Shown here: in pieces, positions 2,276-54,006 of the stretch
Layout of the letters: the number at the start of each line of letters is the position of its first letter
Numbering within the stretch: position 1 is the first letter of the stretch
IMG/VR virus record: IMGVR_UViG_3300033148_008370
Span: 1-55,574 of that record
Strand: one strand, 5' to 3'
DNA: 55,574 nt
Origin: a virus
Program-made: the position numbers and the translations under genes
Notes under the pieces: model-generated
Told to the model about the DNA's origin: nothing
What the model saw: only the letters and a program-made list of their open reading frames with translations
Databases searched by the model: none

Positions 2276-3397
2276 ATGCTTAAGTCATTTAAGCTCAAAA
2301 TATATGCAAACAAGGGAAAGCTCAGGAAGTTAGACAGTCTTATTGATTTTTGGAAGAATCATGTGAATAAGAAGATAGATTTGTTTTGGGACTTTGATGA
2401 GGTCAAAGGTTCATTTCCTCCAAAGGAATATAAAAGAGGAAGTAGATTTATTAACGATTCTTCTACAAAGGCTTGGAGAATAGTAAAGGGAGTCAAGAAT
2501 AGGACAAAGAAGTTATGCTTGGATCTTCAAGAATTAGATTTTTATTCTAAGCATGGGAAAGAGCTAAGAGAGAAAATAAATAACATCTACAAGAAACCTA
2601 TTTTTAAGGGAGAAGAAGTAGATTTGAATGAAGCAACAATAAAGTTTTCTCCTCATAAGAATCACTTTGACTTTTGGGTCAGAATTTCCAACCTTATAAA
2701 AGGAAAAAGACTGAGAATTCCTTGCAAGAAGTTTGAAAGATTTAATAGATTTTTAAAGAAAGGGAAGTTGAAAAAATCAGCTAAATTGTTGAGAAGAGAT
2801 AATGGCTATTTTCTTGAGGTCTATATAGAGATACCAGAGAAAGAGTCCAATAACAAGGAGAAGATTGGCTTAGACATAGGGATGAATAACCCTGTAGCTT
2901 CTTCTGATGGAAAATTCTATGGGAAAGAACTGAAAGAATTGAGGATAAGGACTAAATGGAGAAAATATAAGAACAAAACTTCTCCTTACAAGCAAGGTCT
3001 GAATAGAATAGTGAAAGAAGTTATAAGAGATAATCCTTGCAAGGATTTTGTTGTAGAAAAGTTGTTATTTAAAGGAAAGAAAGGGAGAACAAAAAGGTTT
3101 AGGAGAAGGAATAACAATTGGAGTTATAATTTCTTTTTGAATAAGTTAGAGGAACATGGAAAAACGGAAGGTTTCGAAGTTATTCGTGTTCCAGCTTATT
3201 ATACATCTCTGAAATGCCCATCCTGTGGGCAAATCAGTAAACTGAATCGGAATGGAGATATCTTCTGTTGCATCAACTGTTCTTATAAGAATCATGCTGA
3301 TGTAGTAGGAGCTATCAATGTTCTTGAGAGAGTAGGTAAGGAGGTTTCGTCCCTTAGAAAAACTTTGAATGAAAGACATGAGAATGTCTTTCTATAA
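2276..3397 (+). CDS. tnpB: TnpB RNA-guided nuclease
   Basis: 373 residues. TnpB is the RNA-guided DNA endonuclease of IS200/IS605 elements and the relative of Cas12. The RuvC acidic residues are all present: D200 in GLDIGMN, E261 in VVEKL and D342 in NHADVVGAIN. The zinc finger is intact (C314, C317, then C332 and C335). It is therefore not one of the inactivated TnpB-like repressors. The N-terminus MLKSFKLKIY is typical of the family. It has its own promoter and sits between small and large terminase genes, ending 12 bases before the large terminase. No tnpA is adjacent. Likely role: keeping the element, or its neighbouring allele, in the phage population by cutting copies that lack it. Confidence 0.9.
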   Translation: MLKSFKLKIYANKGKLRKLDSLIDFWKNHVNKKIDLFWDFDEVKGSFPPKEYKRGSRFINDSSTKAWRIVKGVKNRTKKLCLDLQELDFYSKHGKELREKINNIYKKPIFKGEEVDLNEATIKFSPHKNHFDFWVRISNLIKGKRLRIPCKKFERFNRFLKKGKLKKSAKLLRRDNGYFLEVYIEIPEKESNNKEKIGLDIGMNNPVASSDGKFYGKELKELRIRTKWRKYKNKTSPYKQGLNRIVKEVIRDNPCKDFVVEKLLFKGKKGRTKRFRRRNNNWSYNFFLNKLEEHGKTEGFEVIRVPAYYTSLKCPSCGQISKLNRNGDIFCCINCSYKNHADVVGAINVLERVGKEVSSLRKTLNERHENVFL

Positions 3398-40103: not shown

Positions 40104-40919
40104 ATGAGAGATGTTTTATATGGTTCTGAGTATATCAAGGTTCAGTTAGTGCAACATCCTACTGGTCAAGATTTTTATTTCACTGCTCAGAGGATAAAAG
40201 CTGAATATTCTGGAGCTGTGAAAGATATGAATGATGAAGAAGCTCGTAAAATAGTGTTAGAGAAATTGAAATCTCCAGGTGGTTTAGGGAATGCTGGTGA
40301 GCATCTTTTCTTTACATTTGTTGTTGATGGGGTGAGTAGAGCTACTACTCATCAATTAGTGAGAACAAGAATTGGTGCTTCTTTTTCTCAAGAGTCTCAA
40401 AGACTTAATGATGTTAGGGAAGCTCCATTTAGAATGCCTGAGACAGTTAAAAGATATATTGAGAAGAATACAAAATGTGTTGATGAAGTGCTAAGGATAT
40501 ATGAAGCAATTAGGAATTCAAGGGAAGTATATGAGATGTTGATAGACTCAGGGGAGGTTCCATATCAAGACGCCAGATATTTTCTTCCAATTGGGACAAC
40601 TACTCATATATATTGTTCTTATTCATATACTACTCTTTATAACCTGGCAAGGAGGAGATTGTGTAAAGGAGTGCAATGGGAGATAAACACTGTTCTCAGA
40701 CTAATGAAGAAAGCAGTGTGTGATGTGTCATCATTTTTAGATTCTTCGTGGTCAGTAGTTATGGAAACAATGGCTGATGCCCTACAACCTCCTTGTAAGA
40801 CATCAGGAAAATGTTTTAGTAATGAACTGATATTTCCTTCATGTATGAAAAAAGAACAAGGTGATTCTTTGTTTCCACATTCTTTAAACGCCAACCAATT
40901 TAGTCAGGAGGAGAAATAA
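40104..40919 (+). CDS. thyX: FAD-dependent thymidylate synthase, variant motif
   Basis: 271 residues. ThyX converts dUMP to dTMP with methylenetetrahydrofolate and FAD/NADPH. EHLFFTF (66-72) and HQLVRTRIGASFSQESQRL (83-101) correspond to the EHxxFTF and RHRxxSxNExSxR motifs, but with RTR, one extra residue and SQ in place of NE. YQDARYFLPIGTTT matches the later ARxxLP segment. Downstream of the oxidoreductase-like gene; its stop overlaps the polymerase start (TAATG). A second, different ThyX is at 48377. Confidence 0.85.
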   Translation: MRDVLYGSEYIKVQLVQHPTGQDFYFTAQRIKAEYSGAVKDMNDEEARKIVLEKLKSPGGLGNAGEHLFFTFVVDGVSRATTHQLVRTRIGASFSQESQRLNDVREAPFRMPETVKRYIEKNTKCVDEVLRIYEAIRNSREVYEMLIDSGEVPYQDARYFLPIGTTTHIYCSYSYTTLYNLARRRLCKGVQWEINTVLRLMKKAVCDVSSFLDSSWSVVMETMADALQPPCKTSGKCFSNELIFPSCMKKEQGDSLFPHSLNANQFSQEEK

Positions 40920-43900
40920 TGCAGTTTGCACATTTACATTTACATACAAATTATAGTTTATTAGATTCAATTATCAGGATTGATGACTTGGTGAAAAAGG
41001 TTAAAGAGATGAAACAACCAGCAGTTGCAATGACTGATCATGGTAATATTGATGGAGCTGTTAAGTTTTATCATGCTTGTGAGAAAGAGGGTATAAAGCC
41101 CATAATAGGTTGTGAATTATATCTTGTGGATAATTTGTATGAAAGACCATCATATAAGAAGATAGAGAAGGAGGTTGAATTTATAACTTTATTCTTTACA
41201 GATGATACAAAGAAAGAATTTAAGTATGATGATGTCCTTGAGATCAAATTAAAGACTAAGAATGGAACAAAGAATAGAAAGACATCTACAGTTAAAGTTG
41301 GAGATATTGTGAAAGTAGATGGTCAATTTTTAGAAGTTAAGAATATTAGAAGCAGAAAGAAGAAAACTTGGGTAGATTCCAAGAAGAAGGAAAAGGAGAA
41401 GAGACTTCATTGCACTATTTTGACCAAAAATTGGGATGGTATGAAGAAGTTGATGAAGCTTCTTAATATTGCAAATAAAGATGGGTTTTATTACAAGCCA
41501 AGAGTAGATAAAAAACATTTGTTTGAGATATGTGATTCTGATGTCATACTGATGTCAGCCTGCACATCAGGTCTTTTATCCTTAGATAATTATGAAGAAT
41601 TAGTTATGGATTTTCATAATAAGTATAAAGATGACTTTTATTTAGAGATAATGCCCTTTTCTGATTTTGAGCTTCAAGATAAGATTAATTCAAGAGCTAT
41701 TGAAATGAGTAAGAAATTGGGTATAAAGGTAGTATGCACAAGAGACTGTCATTATTTAAATGAAGAGGATAATGAATTACATGAAGTCTTTCTTGCTATA
41801 GGTCAGAAGGACAAATATGGTAGGAAAATAAAATGGAATGATCCAAATAGATGGAAATTTGATGTAACAGGTTTATATGTCAGCACTGCGAAAGAGATGA
41901 TGAGAGATTTAAAGAAATGTGGTATATCAAATGATATAATAGTAAAGTGTTTTAAGTCAGTAGATGAAATAATATCCAAGTGTAATACTAAGATGGAGAA
42001 GATATACCCTGCTGTTTTGCCTGAAATAAAAGGAAGTGTTGAAGAAGACAGAAAAGAATTTATTAGACAGATAATGGAGGGGAAGAAGAGAAGAGGGTTA
42101 TCAGGTAAAGAAGTGGATGATAGACTTAAAGAAGAAATAAGAGTTATTGTGAATGGAGGTTTTGAAAAATATTTTCTTATTACTTCTGACCTTATAAGAT
42201 ATGCTCGTTCAGTCATGCAGGTTGGAATATCACGTGGGTCAGTAGGTGGATCATTGGTTGCTTATTGTATGGGAATTGTAGATATTAATCCTTTGAAATA
42301 TGATTTGCTTTTTTCTCGTTTTCTTTCAGAGGGAAGAATTGACCAACCAGATATTGATATTGATTTTCAGAAGGACAAGAGATGGATGGTTCAAAAATAT
42401 TTAGAAGACAAGTATGGTTACAATAATGTTGCAACATTGTCCACTTTTCAGATTATGAAAGGGAAAAGAGCAATAAGAGATGTTGGTTCATTGTTTGATA
42501 TACCAAATGATGAAATCAATAAAGTTGCAAATTCAATTAAAACTCGTTCAGCTGGTGATATGAGAGCTGAAGACTCTCTCAAGGATACTTTTGAGCTATA
42601 TGAAGAAGCAAAGAGATTTTATAAGAAGTATCCACACATAAGTGATCTTGCTTGTAGATTAGAGGGATTATATAGACAAGCTGGTTCACATGCGGCAGGT
42701 GTAGTTGTATGTGGAGATGATTTATATTCTGGGAATCAGTGTGTAATAGTCAAGAGAGGTAGTGCTGATAAGGTTATTAATTGGGATAAGAAGGATTTAG
42801 AGTTTATGGGTCTTATTAAGTGGGACATACTTGGTCTTGCTGTCCTTTCTGTTATAGACAATACAAAGGAATTATCTGGACTTTCTCAGGAGGAAATAGA
42901 TAATATTTATCAAGGAGAAATGGATGATCCCAAAGTTTATGAACAATTTGACAAGGGGAATACTATAGGGATACATGAGTTTAAATCCTTTGGTATGAGA
43001 GATTATACCAGAAGGATGGATGTGAAAGAATTTGAAGATATAGTCTCTCTGAATACTTTGTTTCGTCCAGGGACTCTTCGTTCAGGTCTTGCAGAAGAGT
43101 TTCTGATGAGAAAGTCAGGAGAAAGACCAACAGTATATAAAAATGATATAATAAAGAAAATTACTGAGAAGACTTATGGGATTATTCTGTATCAAGAACA
43201 ACTTATGTATGCTCTTGCTTGGCTTGCTGGAATACCTTGGAGAACCTGTGATACAGTGAGAAAAGTTGTAAGTAAGTCTCAGGGAGTAGAAAAGCTACTT
43301 ACATTTAAGCAATTATTTGTTGATGGATGTGTTAAGAAAGGAACTTTATCCAGAAATGAAGCTGATGAACTATTTGATACTTTGAAAGATTTCGGTGCGT
43401 ATTGTCTGTCAAAAGATTCTATAATAGGTATTAAGAATCCTATTAGGATTGATGAATTGTATAATAAATTTGTTTCAGGTGAAGTTCTGAGCACAGAATC
43501 TTTTTATGAAGGAAAAGTAGTCAATAATAAAATAGTTAATATGTGGAAGTCAGGGAAGAAGGAGGTCTTTTTAGTTTCATTCAAGAATGGGATGACCTTG
43601 AAAGCAACTGAAGATCATGCTATTATAACTAAGTATGGAGAAAAGAAAGTTAAGGATATTGTTATTGGAGAGGAAGTTATAACAGCTAAAGGTTATACAT
43701 ATTCAGATGATTATAATGTTGAGATAACAGAAGTTAAGAAGATAGAACCTGTTGGAAAAGAAGAAACTTATGATATAGAAATGGAATTTCCAATTAATAA
43801 TTTCTTTGCTAATGGAGTATTGGTTCACAATAGCTTTAATCGTTGCTTGTCAGGTGATACTGTAATAAATGAATCAGTAAAAGGTAAATCAGGAGCTCAG

Positions 43901-45829
43901 TGGAGAAGGATAACTATAAAAGATGCCTATGAGAAACGAGCAAAGAGAATACAAGTTTATAATACTGATACTGGTAAGTCTTTTGCTGGTAAAGTTAAAG
44001 AGATTGTAAAGACAGGTAGGAAATTTGTTTATGAATTAAGAGTAGAAATTCCAGTCAGTGAAAAGCAGAAAAGAACTCATAAAATAAAAGCAACAGCTGA
44101 ACATAGGTTCTTTACAGATACTGGTTGGAAATGTCTTGGTGATATTAGGATAGATGATAATGTTTTAGTTGAAGATGAAAATTCAGAAAATCCTTTTGAA
44201 TTCCATAAAGTTGTTTATATTGAACCTATAGGGGTTGAAGAAACTTATGATATACATGTGGATGAAAAATATCATAACTATGTTGCAAATTTATTTGTAG
44301 TTCATAATTCACATTCTGTTTCATATTCTATGCTTGCGTATTTAAGTATGTGGCTTAAGGTAAATTATCCAGCTGAGTATATGTGTGCATGTTTAAATTA
44401 TTTTGAGAAGGAAATGGAGAAGATAGATTTGATAAATGACATTAGGAGATTAGGTTTAAAGATAGAGTATCCTGATGTAAATTTAAGTGAAAAGAAGTGG
44501 ACAGTAAAAGATGGTAAACTGATATGTGGTCTTATGGAAGTAGATCATCTTGGAGAAAAAGCTGCTGATAATATAATATCAGCAAGGGGTAATGAGCCTT
44601 TTGAGAATGAAGAAGATTTCATGAATAGGATAGACAAGAGGAGGGTGAATAAGAGAATTATTGATAATCTGAAAACTTGTAATGCTTTATTCAATAGGGG
44701 AGAGAATCCTCCAGATGTAGCTGAATCAGTTTTTAAATTTAATTGGTTTTATGATGAAGCAAGAAAATACAAAGATTATTTGAGTAAAGCGAAACCAAGG
44801 TCTTGGCTTGAGGATTTGGATGTAAAGGATAGGGTTCTCAGCTGTGAAGAAAGTGTAGATTTTCCTTGTCCAAGGAAGGGAAAGAGAAATTATGTTACAT
44901 ATGGGAAGATAGAGAAGGTTCATTTTACTTTTAAGGATTTCTTAAAAGAGAAGGTGGATGGAAGCTGGACTAAATATTTCCATCTTATGGATATGAAGGG
45001 ATTTATGAATACTAACTTTGATCACAGATATTTCTTTGAAAAGAAAGAATTCTGTGAGAATTTAAATGATAAATGGATACTCATGCCTTGTGAAAAATGT
45101 TATCATAAGACAGGGAGAACACTATGGAAAGCACATACAATATTTGAGATGAAAGAATTTTTCAAATGTCCATGGAAATTTCAAGAAGGGATAGATGATA
45201 AGAGATTTCATTATCCTGATGCATGGCCTGTTACTATTATTAGACAACCCAATAGAGAAGAACTTACAGAATGTGTTAAGATTATTAAAAAATGTAAAGA
45301 CTGTCCATTCTCTAATACCTGTGAAGCCTCAGCAACTCCAGTGCCATTATGGATAGGTAGGAAGGCAAAGAATATACTGATTGTCGCTGAATCGCCAGGT
45401 GCTAATGAGGAAAAGGAAGGAATTCCTTTAGTTGGAAGAGCAGGTCAAGTATTATGGGATGGACTTAAAAAGTATAACTTGAATAGAGATCAATTCTGTA
45501 TAAGTAATATATTGAAATGCAGACCCAAAGACAATAAGATATCTCTTTTGAATAAGAGAGATATAAATAAATGTAGTCAGGAGTATTTGAGAAAGGAGAT
45601 TCTTGCTTTAAAACCATCAATAATATTATCACTTGGTGCTTATAGTAAGAACTTCTTTGGGAAAGATGATTCTATGTATAATTTGTCAGGAACATTTGAA
45701 TGGGATAAGAATTACAAGTGTTTTGTAGTTTATGGGATACATCCTTCAGCTGTTCTCTACTCATCTGGAAGTCAGGTATATTTAGATAAAGCATTGGAGA
45801 CTTTTTATAAACTGACATATAGTGTGTAA
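40919..45829 (+). CDS. dnaE: DnaE-type DNA polymerase III alpha with two mini-inteins and C-terminal uracil-DNA glycosylase
   Basis: 1,636 residues. PHP domain 1-260 (HLHTNYS, TDHGN, GCELYLVDN); an unusual 76-residue insert at about 86-161; polymerase core with GSVGGS and PDIDIDF (about 477-483); inteins at 829-971 and 976-1130; helix-hairpin-helix and OB-like parts about 1131-1450; then a family 4 uracil-DNA glycosylase (about 1452-1636) with VAESPGANEEKEGIPLVGRA, LKCRP and IHPSA, and cysteines for a 4Fe-4S cluster (KCKDC, KCRP, a later Cys). After splicing the polymerase keeps FGAY-SFNR-SHS, matching normal DnaE. It would replicate phage DNA; the tethered glycosylase may remove uracil at the fork. 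No 3'-5' exonuclease motif seen. Confidence 0.9.
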   Translation: MQFAHLHLHTNYSLLDSIIRIDDLVKKVKEMKQPAVAMTDHGNIDGAVKFYHACEKEGIKPIIGCELYLVDNLYERPSYKKIEKEVEFITLFFTDDTKKEFKYDDVLEIKLKTKNGTKNRKTSTVKVGDIVKVDGQFLEVKNIRSRKKKTWVDSKKKEKEKRLHCTILTKNWDGMKKLMKLLNIANKDGFYYKPRVDKKHLFEICDSDVILMSACTSGLLSLDNYEELVMDFHNKYKDDFYLEIMPFSDFELQDKINSRAIEMSKKLGIKVVCTRDCHYLNEEDNELHEVFLAIGQKDKYGRKIKWNDPNRWKFDVTGLYVSTAKEMMRDLKKCGISNDIIVKCFKSVDEIISKCNTKMEKIYPAVLPEIKGSVEEDRKEFIRQIMEGKKRRGLSGKEVDDRLKEEIRVIVNGGFEKYFLITSDLIRYARSVMQVGISRGSVGGSLVAYCMGIVDINPLKYDLLFSRFLSEGRIDQPDIDIDFQKDKRWMVQKYLEDKYGYNNVATLSTFQIMKGKRAIRDVGSLFDIPNDEINKVANSIKTRSAGDMRAEDSLKDTFELYEEAKRFYKKYPHISDLACRLEGLYRQAGSHAAGVVVCGDDLYSGNQCVIVKRGSADKVINWDKKDLEFMGLIKWDILGLAVLSVIDNTKELSGLSQEEIDNIYQGEMDDPKVYEQFDKGNTIGIHEFKSFGMRDYTRRMDVKEFEDIVSLNTLFRPGTLRSGLAEEFLMRKSGERPTVYKNDIIKKITEKTYGIILYQEQLMYALAWLAGIPWRTCDTVRKVVSKSQGVEKLLTFKQLFVDGCVKKGTLSRNEADELFDTLKDFGAYCLSKDSIIGIKNPIRIDELYNKFVSGEVLSTESFYEGKVVNNKIVNMWKSGKKEVFLVSFKNGMTLKATEDHAIITKYGEKKVKDIVIGEEVITAKGYTYSDDYNVEITEVKKIEPVGKEETYDIEMEFPINNFFANGVLVHNSFNRCLSGDTVINESVKGKSGAQWRRITIKDAYEKRAKRIQVYNTDTGKSFAGKVKEIVKTGRKFVYELRVEIPVSEKQKRTHKIKATAEHRFFTDTGWKCLGDIRIDDNVLVEDENSENPFEFHKVVYIEPIGVEETYDIHVDEKYHNYVANLFVVHNSHSVSYSMLAYLSMWLKVNYPAEYMCACLNYFEKEMEKIDLINDIRRLGLKIEYPDVNLSEKKWTVKDGKLICGLMEVDHLGEKAADNIISARGNEPFENEEDFMNRIDKRRVNKRIIDNLKTCNALFNRGENPPDVAESVFKFNWFYDEARKYKDYLSKAKPRSWLEDLDVKDRVLSCEESVDFPCPRKGKRNYVTYGKIEKVHFTFKDFLKEKVDGSWTKYFHLMDMKGFMNTNFDHRYFFEKKEFCENLNDKWILMPCEKCYHKTGRTLWKAHTIFEMKEFFKCPWKFQEGIDDKRFHYPDAWPVTIIRQPNREELTECVKIIKKCKDCPFSNTCEASATPVPLWIGRKAKNILIVAESPGANEEKEGIPLVGRAGQVLWDGLKKYNLNRDQFCISNILKCRPKDNKISLLNKRDINKCSQEYLRKEILALKPSIILSLGAYSKNFFGKDDSMYNLSGTFEWDKNYKCFVVYGIHPSAVLYSSGSQVYLDKALETFYKLTYSV
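43403..43831 (+). other. Mini-intein 1 in DnaE
   Basis: 143 residues (829-971). Starts CLSKDSIIG after FGAY, has TEDH (block B), EETYDIEME and FFANGVLVHN before +1 Ser. No homing-endonuclease domain. Insertion site corresponds to the one used by the split DnaE intein of cyanobacteria (AEY/CFN). Confidence 0.92.
43844..44308 (+). other. Mini-intein 2 in DnaE
   Basis: 155 residues (976-1130). Starts CLSGDTVIN after SFNR, has TAEH, EETYDIHVD and NYVANLFVVHN before +1 Ser (SHSVSYS). No endonuclease domain. Only the four codons at 43832-43843 separate it from intein 1. Confidence 0.92.
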
Positions 45830-48376: not shown

Positions 48377-49324
48377 ATGTCATTAAATACATCTTATAAG
48401 ATTGAACTGCTCAGAGACAATATACTTGGATTTAGAGAGAATGGGGATGCTGTTATTGAAGCCTCATCTATGAGCTACCAGAAGCCTGTTAAGACTGAAA
48501 GAAAGAAATTTCTTTTGTTTCTTCTCAATAATGGTCATCATTCATGCTTTGAACATACAGATTTTGTTGTAGAGATTAAGTTAGTTAAGTTAGGTAGTAT
48601 AATGAACTTGAATGATATTCAGCATATTAACCTGAAGGATAGATTTGGAAATTTAGGATTACTTTTATTTTCAGATTTTAATGTTAATTCTTATGTATTT
48701 TCTGGTTCTTTGAGAGATTTTATTGATTTTCATAATTATTTTCTCAAGAAGAAGGAATCTGGTTATTTGTTTAGTAAGAATAGGAAATTTAACAGAATTT
48801 TAGATTCTATAAATAATTTCATAGTAGATTTCTTTGATCAGTCTGACAGCTATGAAGGGGATGGTTATAGTATTATTTCTTGGGATGATTTAGGTTTTGA
48901 TACATTTAATAAAAGAGTTCAGTTTAAGTTCAGGTCAAGTAGATATACAATGGATCAACTTAGAACACATAGAAGTCTTTCTTTTATTGCTGAATCACAG
49001 AGAAGAGTTTCTTATTCTGATGATTTTAGAGTTGTGTTACCAGAGATGAAATATCTAAAGGATCATAAGAATGTAAATGACTTGCTGGACAGTGCTATGG
49101 AATATAGTCATAACACATATTCACAGCTTAGGAAATTTAAAGTGAAGAAAGAAGATGCAAGGTGTGTTCTTCCTATGTGCATTGTTAGTAATTATATTGT
49201 CACAGCTTCTTTAAAAGACTGGTGTGATTTTATAAGGAAGAGGATGATACCTGAAACTCAGAAGGAATTAAAGACTATTGCTTCTGGGGTTGACAATATT
49301 TTAAAGGAGGTTTTTAAAATATGA
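48377..49324 (+). CDS. thyX: Second ThyX-like protein
   Basis: 315 residues, longer than usual ThyX. GHHSCFEHTDFVVEI (53-67) and QLRTHRSLSFIAESQRRV (194-211) are the two ThyX signatures, here RTHRSLSFIAESQR; DARCVLPMCIVSNY and WCDFIRKRMIPETQKEL match the C-terminal ARxxLP and lR...aQ.E motifs. An insert of about 60 residues (105-165) separates the halves. It differs strongly from the ThyX at 40104 and keeps more of the C-terminal motifs. May be the main thymidylate synthase, or a related enzyme acting on dUMP. Confidence 0.8.
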   Translation: MSLNTSYKIELLRDNILGFRENGDAVIEASSMSYQKPVKTERKKFLLFLLNNGHHSCFEHTDFVVEIKLVKLGSIMNLNDIQHINLKDRFGNLGLLLFSDFNVNSYVFSGSLRDFIDFHNYFLKKKESGYLFSKNRKFNRILDSINNFIVDFFDQSDSYEGDGYSIISWDDLGFDTFNKRVQFKFRSSRYTMDQLRTHRSLSFIAESQRRVSYSDDFRVVLPEMKYLKDHKNVNDLLDSAMEYSHNTYSQLRKFKVKKEDARCVLPMCIVSNYIVTASLKDWCDFIRKRMIPETQKELKTIASGVDNILKEVFKI

Positions 49325-51189: not shown

Positions 51190-54006
51190 ATGATGAAAAA
51201 GAGCTTTCTGGTGTTTTCAGATTTACATGTGAAAAATGATAACTTGGATGAATGTATTTCTGTTTTGAATCAGATTGAAGAATGTTCTTCAGAGAATGAT
51301 ACTGACAAGATATTCTTTCTTGGTGATTTATATGAGAAGAAGAGATATGTAGATTTAAATATTTTCAATAGGGTATATTCTGAGCTTTATAAATTATCCG
51401 AATGCTGTAATAGATTATACTTAATGGTTGGAAATCATGATAGGTCATTAGAGAATAGCGAACACTGTATGTCAAGCATGTTTCCGTTTTCAGAAATAAT
51501 CTCTGATTTTAGTATCATATATGATAAAGATAATAAGATAGAATTTCATTGTGTGCCTTATTTGACTGGAGGATTGATGAAGTCAGGTTTTAAGGTAGAA
51601 CCAACACATAGAGATTATAGACAAATATTATTTTTTCATGGGAGTTATAGTGGTTTGAGAATTAATAATCATAGTCTTTCATCTGATTTTACAAAAGAGG
51701 AGATGAATTTACATTTCTATGACTTAGTCATGGGAGGGCATATCCACAAGAGAATGCAGTTTGATAAGAATGCTCTTTATGTTGGTTCACCTCTTCATAA
51801 AGATTTTTCTGACTGTGGAGAGGATAAGGGATTTTACACTGTGGATTATGAGACTTTAACTCCTATTTTTCACAAGTTAGAATATCCAGAATTCATTAAG
51901 ATAGTTACAAAGAGAGACATAAAGGAATACAGAGATAAACTTAGGAATAGTCATATTTGGTTATTTCTTGATGGTGATGAAATCCATAATAAGCTTAAGA
52001 AAATTGCAAAGTCAGTTAGATATACTCCTATAATTGAAGAGAGGGAGAAGGAGGAATATAATGATATTCTCAATATTGAATTAGCTTTGGTATCATATTT
52101 GAAGGAGAAGAATGAAGATGTAGAGAAAAGGTTGTTTCAGTATAAGGATAGATGGGGTAAATTCTCTTCAGTTCATAAAGATGTTAAGATAGGAATGTTG
52201 AGAGCCAAGAATTTTCTTTCATATAAGGATTTGGAGTGGGATTTCAGTATTCTTACTGATTCACCCATAGGTATATTTGGTAAGAATGGGGCAGGAAAAT
52301 CTTCTTTTGTAGAATCTATAGTATGGGGTATATATGGTTCTACTATAAGAAATGCTTCAGCTGACAGTGTTGTTAATAGGAAATTCAAAAATAATTGCCA
52401 TGTTAATATTGTTTTTCAGAGTGGTAGTAAGAATATAGAGATTAACAGATATAGAAAACATGAAAAGGAGAAGAATAATTTAAACATAAGTGAGGGTAAA
52501 GGTTCAGAAAAGAGATTGACTCAGATCTATATAAATAATTTGTTATGTCCTTTATCTCATTTTAAGACTTTGATTACTATGGGAAGTGGTTCAGTTCCAA
52601 TTATGAGACTTAAACCATCTGATAGAAAGTCTGTTATAGAAAATGTAATAGGGATGAACTGGATAGAGGAAGAATATAAAAGTATAAAGAAGGAGCTGAG
52701 CAAGAGGGAACAAGAATACATGAAGATAAGTATGGGTTTGGAGAATGTCAAGGATAGATACCAAGATTTACAAAATGAATTATTAAAAGTAGATGAATTA
52801 TGTAAACAAGCTGAAGATGAGAAGAGAGAGAAGAGAGAAGAAATAGAGAGAAGAATAGATGAGATAGGTATTATAGCTTCTAATATGCATTCTAAGTTAG
52901 TTGAAAGAGAGAAGATAGTAAATAGTATAGAAGAGAAACTATTGCTTAATTCTAAGGTGATTTCTGAAATTACAGAGAAGAAGGATAATTCATTGAGAAT
53001 GATTGAGAAGGAGAGAATCCAGTTAAGAAATGAAATTAGACAAATGGAAAGTGAGATAAGGAAGTGGAAGAAGAAAATTAAGAATGATAACTCTGAAGTT
53101 TCAGTCTGTGATTTCTGTTTATCCAAATATAATCCTAAAGATGTTAATAGGAAAATAGAGAAGATAATATCAGAGAAGGAAGATGAATTAAAGAGAGTAA
53201 AGAATATAATAAAGAAGAAAGATGAGGAAGCTGATAAAATCAGAGTAAAATATTCTGAAAGACATGAAATGTATGTTAAGGAGAGAGAAATTCTTGAGAA
53301 AGAACTTTCTAATGTTGGGATCACAGAACTCAAGATGAAAATAGAAAGACTGTTGGGTGAGAGAGATCAGTTGGAGAGAGAACTGAATTCTATTGAGTCT
53401 GAAAATAAATGGAAAAAGTATTATAATGAACTAAGAGATAAAATTTCAAGTCTTGAGGAAGAGATGAGAATGTCAGAAAAGGAAGAAAGAAATTGTAAGA
53501 GAAAGCTGGATTACTGTAAATTCTGGAAGGAAGCATTCAGTCTTTCAGGCTTCAGGAAAAATCTTATAAGAATTGTTCTCCCATTCTTAGAAAGAAAAAT
53601 CAATAATTACCTTTCTCAATGGAACCTGAAATGTAAAATAACTATGAAAGGAAAAAGAGAAGATATAAATATATCTCTTATAGAAGAAAATAAGAATGTA
53701 GAATATAGTCTGTATTCTGGTGGAGAGAGAAATAGAATTGACTGTGCAATTCTGTTTTCGCTTTACGAAATTGCTTCCATGTTGACCATGAAAATAAATG
53801 TGCTGATTTTAGATGAAGTTCTCACTGGTCTGGACGAGGAAGGTGCTTCAGATGTGTATAAGATGACAAAAGATTTCATGAATAGAATAAAAATACAAGT
53901 CTATATGATTACTCATAATGTTCACATGCAATCTCTGTTTGAGAAGTATATTAGAGTAAAGAATGAAAAAGATTTTTCCCAGATTTACCCAGTAATTAGC
54001 TCATAG
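51190..54006 (+). CDS. Single-chain Mre11-Rad50 (SbcD-SbcC) fusion
   Basis: 938 residues. Residues 1-300: SbcD/Mre11 nuclease, with SDLH (10-13), GDLY (45-48), GNHD (81-84), HGSYSG and GGHIH motifs. Residues about 330-938: SbcC/Rad50 ATPase with Walker A GKNGAGKS (about 364-371), long coiled coil, zinc hook CDFC (640-643), signature YSGGERNRID (about 842) and Walker B LILDEVLTGLDEEG (about 872). In T4 and bacteria these are separate genes (gp47/gp46, sbcD/sbcC). The fused protein should process DNA ends for recombination and fork repair. AAGGAG precedes ATGATG. Confidence 0.9.
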   Translation: MMKKSFLVFSDLHVKNDNLDECISVLNQIEECSSENDTDKIFFLGDLYEKKRYVDLNIFNRVYSELYKLSECCNRLYLMVGNHDRSLENSEHCMSSMFPFSEIISDFSIIYDKDNKIEFHCVPYLTGGLMKSGFKVEPTHRDYRQILFFHGSYSGLRINNHSLSSDFTKEEMNLHFYDLVMGGHIHKRMQFDKNALYVGSPLHKDFSDCGEDKGFYTVDYETLTPIFHKLEYPEFIKIVTKRDIKEYRDKLRNSHIWLFLDGDEIHNKLKKIAKSVRYTPIIEEREKEEYNDILNIELALVSYLKEKNEDVEKRLFQYKDRWGKFSSVHKDVKIGMLRAKNFLSYKDLEWDFSILTDSPIGIFGKNGAGKSSFVESIVWGIYGSTIRNASADSVVNRKFKNNCHVNIVFQSGSKNIEINRYRKHEKEKNNLNISEGKGSEKRLTQIYINNLLCPLSHFKTLITMGSGSVPIMRLKPSDRKSVIENVIGMNWIEEEYKSIKKELSKREQEYMKISMGLENVKDRYQDLQNELLKVDELCKQAEDEKREKREEIERRIDEIGIIASNMHSKLVEREKIVNSIEEKLLLNSKVISEITEKKDNSLRMIEKERIQLRNEIRQMESEIRKWKKKIKNDNSEVSVCDFCLSKYNPKDVNRKIEKIISEKEDELKRVKNIIKKKDEEADKIRVKYSERHEMYVKEREILEKELSNVGITELKMKIERLLGERDQLERELNSIESENKWKKYYNELRDKISSLEEEMRMSEKEERNCKRKLDYCKFWKEAFSLSGFRKNLIRIVLPFLERKINNYLSQWNLKCKITMKGKREDINISLIEENKNVEYSLYSGGERNRIDCAILFSLYEIASMLTMKINVLILDEVLTGLDEEGASDVYKMTKDFMNRIKIQVYMITHNVHMQSLFEKYIRVKNEKDFSQIYPVISS

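Follow-up and report, generated by a model that had tools for sequence, protein, structure and literature searches.

Two class 1 mini-inteins four residues apart in a phage DnaE polymerase

Introduction

The DnaE inteins of cyanobacteria are split between two genes and are followed by Cys at the +1 position. Their insertion point, in the Ssp and Npu examples, lies after a conserved Tyr and before [C/S]FN[KR]SHS, and they adopt the HINT fold; the phage intein called intein 1 here shares both features. Liu and Yang reportedly described a multi-intein DnaE from Trichodesmium erythraeum in 2003 (a study cited in PMC5874633). This cellular protein contains several inteins, one of them at the cyanobacterial split site.

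Two inteins within one replication protein have also been described in haloarchaeal MCM (MCM-a/MCM-d), in Pyrococcus abyssi CDC21 (CDC21-1/-2), and in the DNA polymerase of Thermococcus kodakaraensis. Neighboring inteins in those genes are 27 (PMC6801210) or 48 (PMC8966425), and 85 residues (PMC8966425) apart. The haloarchaeal MCM pair has active endonucleases, and its members interfere with each other (PMC10643990); the P. abyssi pair has none (PMC6801210).

Here we describe a phage DnaE that likewise carries two inteins, separated by 4 residues rather than the 27–85 of the published pairs found. The parts are ordinary and the arrangement is unusual; the spacing is much closer than that of the other intein pairs found in this work.

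The dnaE gene and its phage

The window analyzed comprises an entire IMG/VR virus record, 55,574 bases long. Because it carries genes for terminase, portal, head maturation protease, DnaB, SSB, RecA, and ThyX, it can be assigned to a tailed phage. Its dnaE reading frame, unbroken throughout, encodes a DnaE polymerase that is interrupted by two inteins and carries a family-4 uracil-DNA glycosylase (UDG) domain at its C terminus (Table 1). The multiple alignment shows no variation at residues D480, D482, and D636, presumably the catalytic aspartates.

Table 1. Features of the dnaE locus, in window coordinates
Feature	Positions	Strand	Evidence
dnaE ORF, 1636 aa	40919..45829	+	ORF list; Pfam PHP, DNA_pol3_alpha, finger, HHH_6, UDG, Intein_splicing; NCBIfam
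N-extein, residues 1-828, ending DFGAY	40919..43402	+	End = E. coli alpha Y754 / Taq 811 (solved structures); Y828 invariant (multiple alignment)
Intein 1, residues 829-971, 143 aa, CLSKDS...VLVHN, site 1 (Y/S junction)	43403..43831	+	PF14890 41.0 bits, E 2.1e-10; TIGR01445, TIGR01443; HINT model; Foldseek
Middle extein SFNR, residues 972-975	43832..43843	+	Aligned with E. coli alpha 755-758; xFN[KR] in homologues
Intein 2, residues 976-1130, 155 aa, CLSGDT...FVVHN, site 2 (R/S junction)	43844..44308	+	PF14890 44.8 bits, E 1.5e-11; TIGR01445, TIGR01443; Ssp DnaB mini-intein
C-extein, starting SHSVSYS; HHH domain, then UDG	44309..45829	+	Start = E. coli alpha S759 / Taq 816 (solved structures); S1131 and H1132 invariant
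Family-4 UDG domain fused to DnaE, residues 1451-1627	45269..45799	+	NF040953 E 1.9e-27; TIGR00758; PF03167

The fusion of DnaE and UDG in one ORF is also present in the seven closest relatives (L038–L044), all of them intein-free; a literature search found no paper describing such a fusion. Elsewhere in the same phage are two ThyX-like thymidylate synthase genes (40104–40919 and 48377–49324), a TnpB/Cas12f-like gene immediately before the terminase gene (2276–3397), and a 938-aa ORF (51190–54006) in which SbcD-like and SbcC-like parts are fused.

Two mini-inteins without endonucleases

A preliminary description of the locus had placed two mini-inteins of 143 and 155 aa at 43403–44308, flanking an SFNR spacer; the ORF, the lengths, and both boundaries agree with the sequence. 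Profile searches bear out the identification. Each segment alone exceeds the curated PF14890 cut-off (35.8 bits), and the NCBIfam models for intein N and C termini (TIGR01445 and TIGR01443) are likewise above cut-off for each. As also proposed there, no homing endonuclease domain was found in either intein with the Pfam and NCBIfam profiles, which returned intein models only; at these lengths, both are mini-inteins.

Profiles and signature residues place both in class 1. Each keeps Cys1, the TxxH of block B (TEDH in intein 1, TAEH in intein 2), the YD of block F, the penultimate His, the last Asn, and Ser at +1. Two substitutions count against a splicing interpretation. In intein 1 the His of block F is replaced by Asn (INNFF), as it is in the site-1 intein of another viral DnaE (L127); in intein 2 the usual Gly before the C terminus is replaced by Leu (ANLFVVHN).

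The AlphaFold2 model of intein 1 has the HINT fold (mean pLDDT 93.5), with Foldseek matches to the Mtu RecA, Ssp DnaB, and DnaE intein structures (E 2e-11). Intein 2 matches the Ssp DnaB mini-intein of Synechocystis over its full length (E 1.2e-13); the host protein and the insertion site differ. A model of the tandem with its flanks shows two successive HINT patterns and again has intein matches in Foldseek, at a modest mean pLDDT of 72 that makes it too uncertain for judging the geometry between domains. The codon usage of both inteins matches that of the phage, and composition is uniform. A search for the junction patterns gave one match in the window and none in any of 100 shuffles.

Empty and occupied insertion sites

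Both inteins are in-frame insertions into a conserved protein and are absent from homologues. In intein-free DnaEs from Moorella phage MTATph1, Geobacillus phage GBK1, a faecal phage, and a Poribacteria genome, the equivalent of Y828 is followed by four residues and then by the equivalents of S1131 and H1132. Exactly four residues also separate these flanks in the best seven (L038–L044) of the 80 viral DnaE loci retained by an alignment-based scan, and their match extends nearly to the end of the query. That scan ranks intein-free genes higher, so it shows the existence of the empty site and not its frequency. Solved structures agree, with four residues between the two junctions (Table 1). The preliminary description had named intein-free homologues unalignable across 829–1130 as a refutation; such homologues do align across the region, and the four-residue middle extein thus stands. 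The motif predicted after splicing is FGAYSFNRSHS; among the DnaEs examined, xFN[KR] is almost always conserved. In the multiple alignment, single site-2 inteins are divided, one part falling under intein 1 and the other under intein 2; the division is an artefact and was not used as evidence.

Site 1 follows the conserved Tyr (Y828, E. coli 754) and is the site of the cyanobacterial split DnaE intein, as the preliminary description had it. In keeping with this, NF007079, which from its length and description we take to be the N-half of cyanobacterial DnaE with the start of its split intein, aligns without a break from the N-extein into intein 1 (residues 153–910). The insertion site is all that intein 1 has in common with the split arrangement: unlike the cyanobacterial inteins, it is contiguous in one ORF, terminates in HN, and is followed by Ser at +1. 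Two further viral inteins occupy site 1, in L032 (295 aa) and L127 (253 aa), with inserts that were judged HNH-like by eye.

Site 2, FN[KR]/SHS, is commonly occupied in viral DnaE: of 25 contigs recovered by a pattern scan, 24 read as DnaE genes with an intein start at this point. The site-2 inteins of L026, L017, and Rhodococcus phages NiceHouse and Grayson share the insertion point of intein 2; they differ from it in standing alone, with site 1 free of an intein, and several are split or have long inserts. The nearest relative of intein 2 found is that of L026 (35% identity in BLAST, 78 bits). Each site is thus used singly by other viral DnaEs.

The site-2 inteins of NiceHouse and Grayson (L036 and L037) are mini-inteins that are not annotated as inteins. 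In six viral loci (L008, L011, L014, L022, L023, and L024) the site-2 intein is split: the N-gene ends after about 96–128 aa of intein sequence, and the C-part, 36–52 aa before SHS, opens a same-strand gene that lies about 0.6–1.5 kb further downstream. The DnaE of L032 has two inteins that lie far apart, a 375-aa one after GIFQLE and its site-1 intein.

Search for other tandem pairs

No other DnaE with tandem inteins at this junction was found with the patterns used, among 2.9 million viral contigs (three patterns) or 84,980 genomes (two patterns). In these patterns [SCT]FN must be preceded by HN (in one viral scan, by N alone) and followed by Cys; the genome scans would therefore miss pairs whose ends differ, for instance one with a cyanobacterial site-1 intein that terminates in SN. 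Two of the viral scans gave 0 matches and the looser one 9; the genome scans gave 0 and 3. All 12 are chance matches in short frames rather than DnaE inteins; the match at L029 lies just upstream of an intein-free dnaE. Single-sequence patterns recovered no close DnaE relatives, a 36-aa probe across the junction matched phages to one side only, and a search of plasmids gave no match to either intein. The pair is known from a single sequence, which counts against the explanation preferred here. A close intein pair in the Trichodesmium DnaE, if there, would reduce its novelty.

Predicted splicing of the pair

We consider it probable, at roughly 0.85, that the locus encodes two different class 1 mini-inteins at adjoining insertion sites of one DnaE, separately excised to restore FGAYSFNRSHS. 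After translation, each intein would fold as its own HINT domain, excise itself, and ligate the sequences on either side; FGAY, SFNR, and SHS would then run on without a break, forming the conserved motif of the DnaE-UDG polymerase. The two excisions would most likely be separate reactions of separate domains and could take place in either order; once one had occurred, the remaining intein would see an ordinary single-intein precursor.

Order may nevertheless matter because SFNR is at once the start of the C-extein of intein 1 and the end of the N-extein of intein 2. One intein might then have to leave before the other could align its junctions, which would make maturation of the polymerase ordered and possibly slow. 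Such ordered or coupled splicing is conceivable, though we think it doubtful. In the tandem model the two domains have little room between them, but the N and C termini of a HINT domain are next to each other at the surface, and on such general knowledge a short link is not obviously impossible. Elsewhere, the two DnaB inteins of M. smegmatis splice at very different rates (PMC6195587), which would be in keeping with an order. Splicing across the pair is another matter: the N-half of intein 1 and the C-half of intein 2 would together remove SFNR along with both inteins, giving an FGAY-SHS polymerase short of four conserved residues. The two are homologous (32% identity) and of the same class, so that an exchange of halves can be imagined, but each is a contiguous, complete domain able to fold alone, and with xFN[KR] so widely conserved the product would probably be inactive; we regard this outcome as very improbable. 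No more credible is a pair acting as a coupled unit of alternative protein splicing, in which the normal and the SFNR-less products would give two polymerase forms from one gene.

Origin of the pair

The two inteins were likely acquired separately, and their homing endonucleases then lost. A recent tandem duplication of one intein into the adjoining site might be suggested by their similar length and common broad family, but it is unlikely in the extreme because the two are only 32% identical (50 bits) and each is closer to inteins elsewhere: intein 1 scores 71 bits against that of L017 and intein 2 scores 78 bits against that of L026. An intein tree of 18 rows, weakly resolved, also leaves the two unjoined. 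As judged from these comparisons, two acquisitions fit better than recent duplication. The record is a metagenome assembly and might in principle be a chimaera of one strain with a site-1 intein and another with a site-2 intein. Between the inserts, the sequence common to two such strains would be the 12 nt of SFNR and nothing more, a stretch too short for an assembler to join on. The frame is also intact and the composition uniform; we give this reading almost no weight.

Homing and outlook

A homing endonuclease specific for either site would have the 12-bp spacer within its DNA target, and an intein at one site should therefore block homing into the other. If so, the doubly filled state would need either endonucleases tolerant enough to allow the entry of one intein after the other, or recombination within 12 bp. 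Such disruption of the target by an intein at either site of the phage dnaE would parallel the interference between haloarchaeal MCM inteins (PMC10643990). With both sites filled, the locus is therefore informative on the spread of inteins and on the reported mutual interference of neighbors.

As a naturally occurring substrate, the pair could also show whether two inteins with a tetrapeptide in common act independently, one after the other, or crosswise; the closeness of its members makes both splicing order and mis-splicing directly testable. It may, in addition, provide a compact tool for tandem protein splicing.
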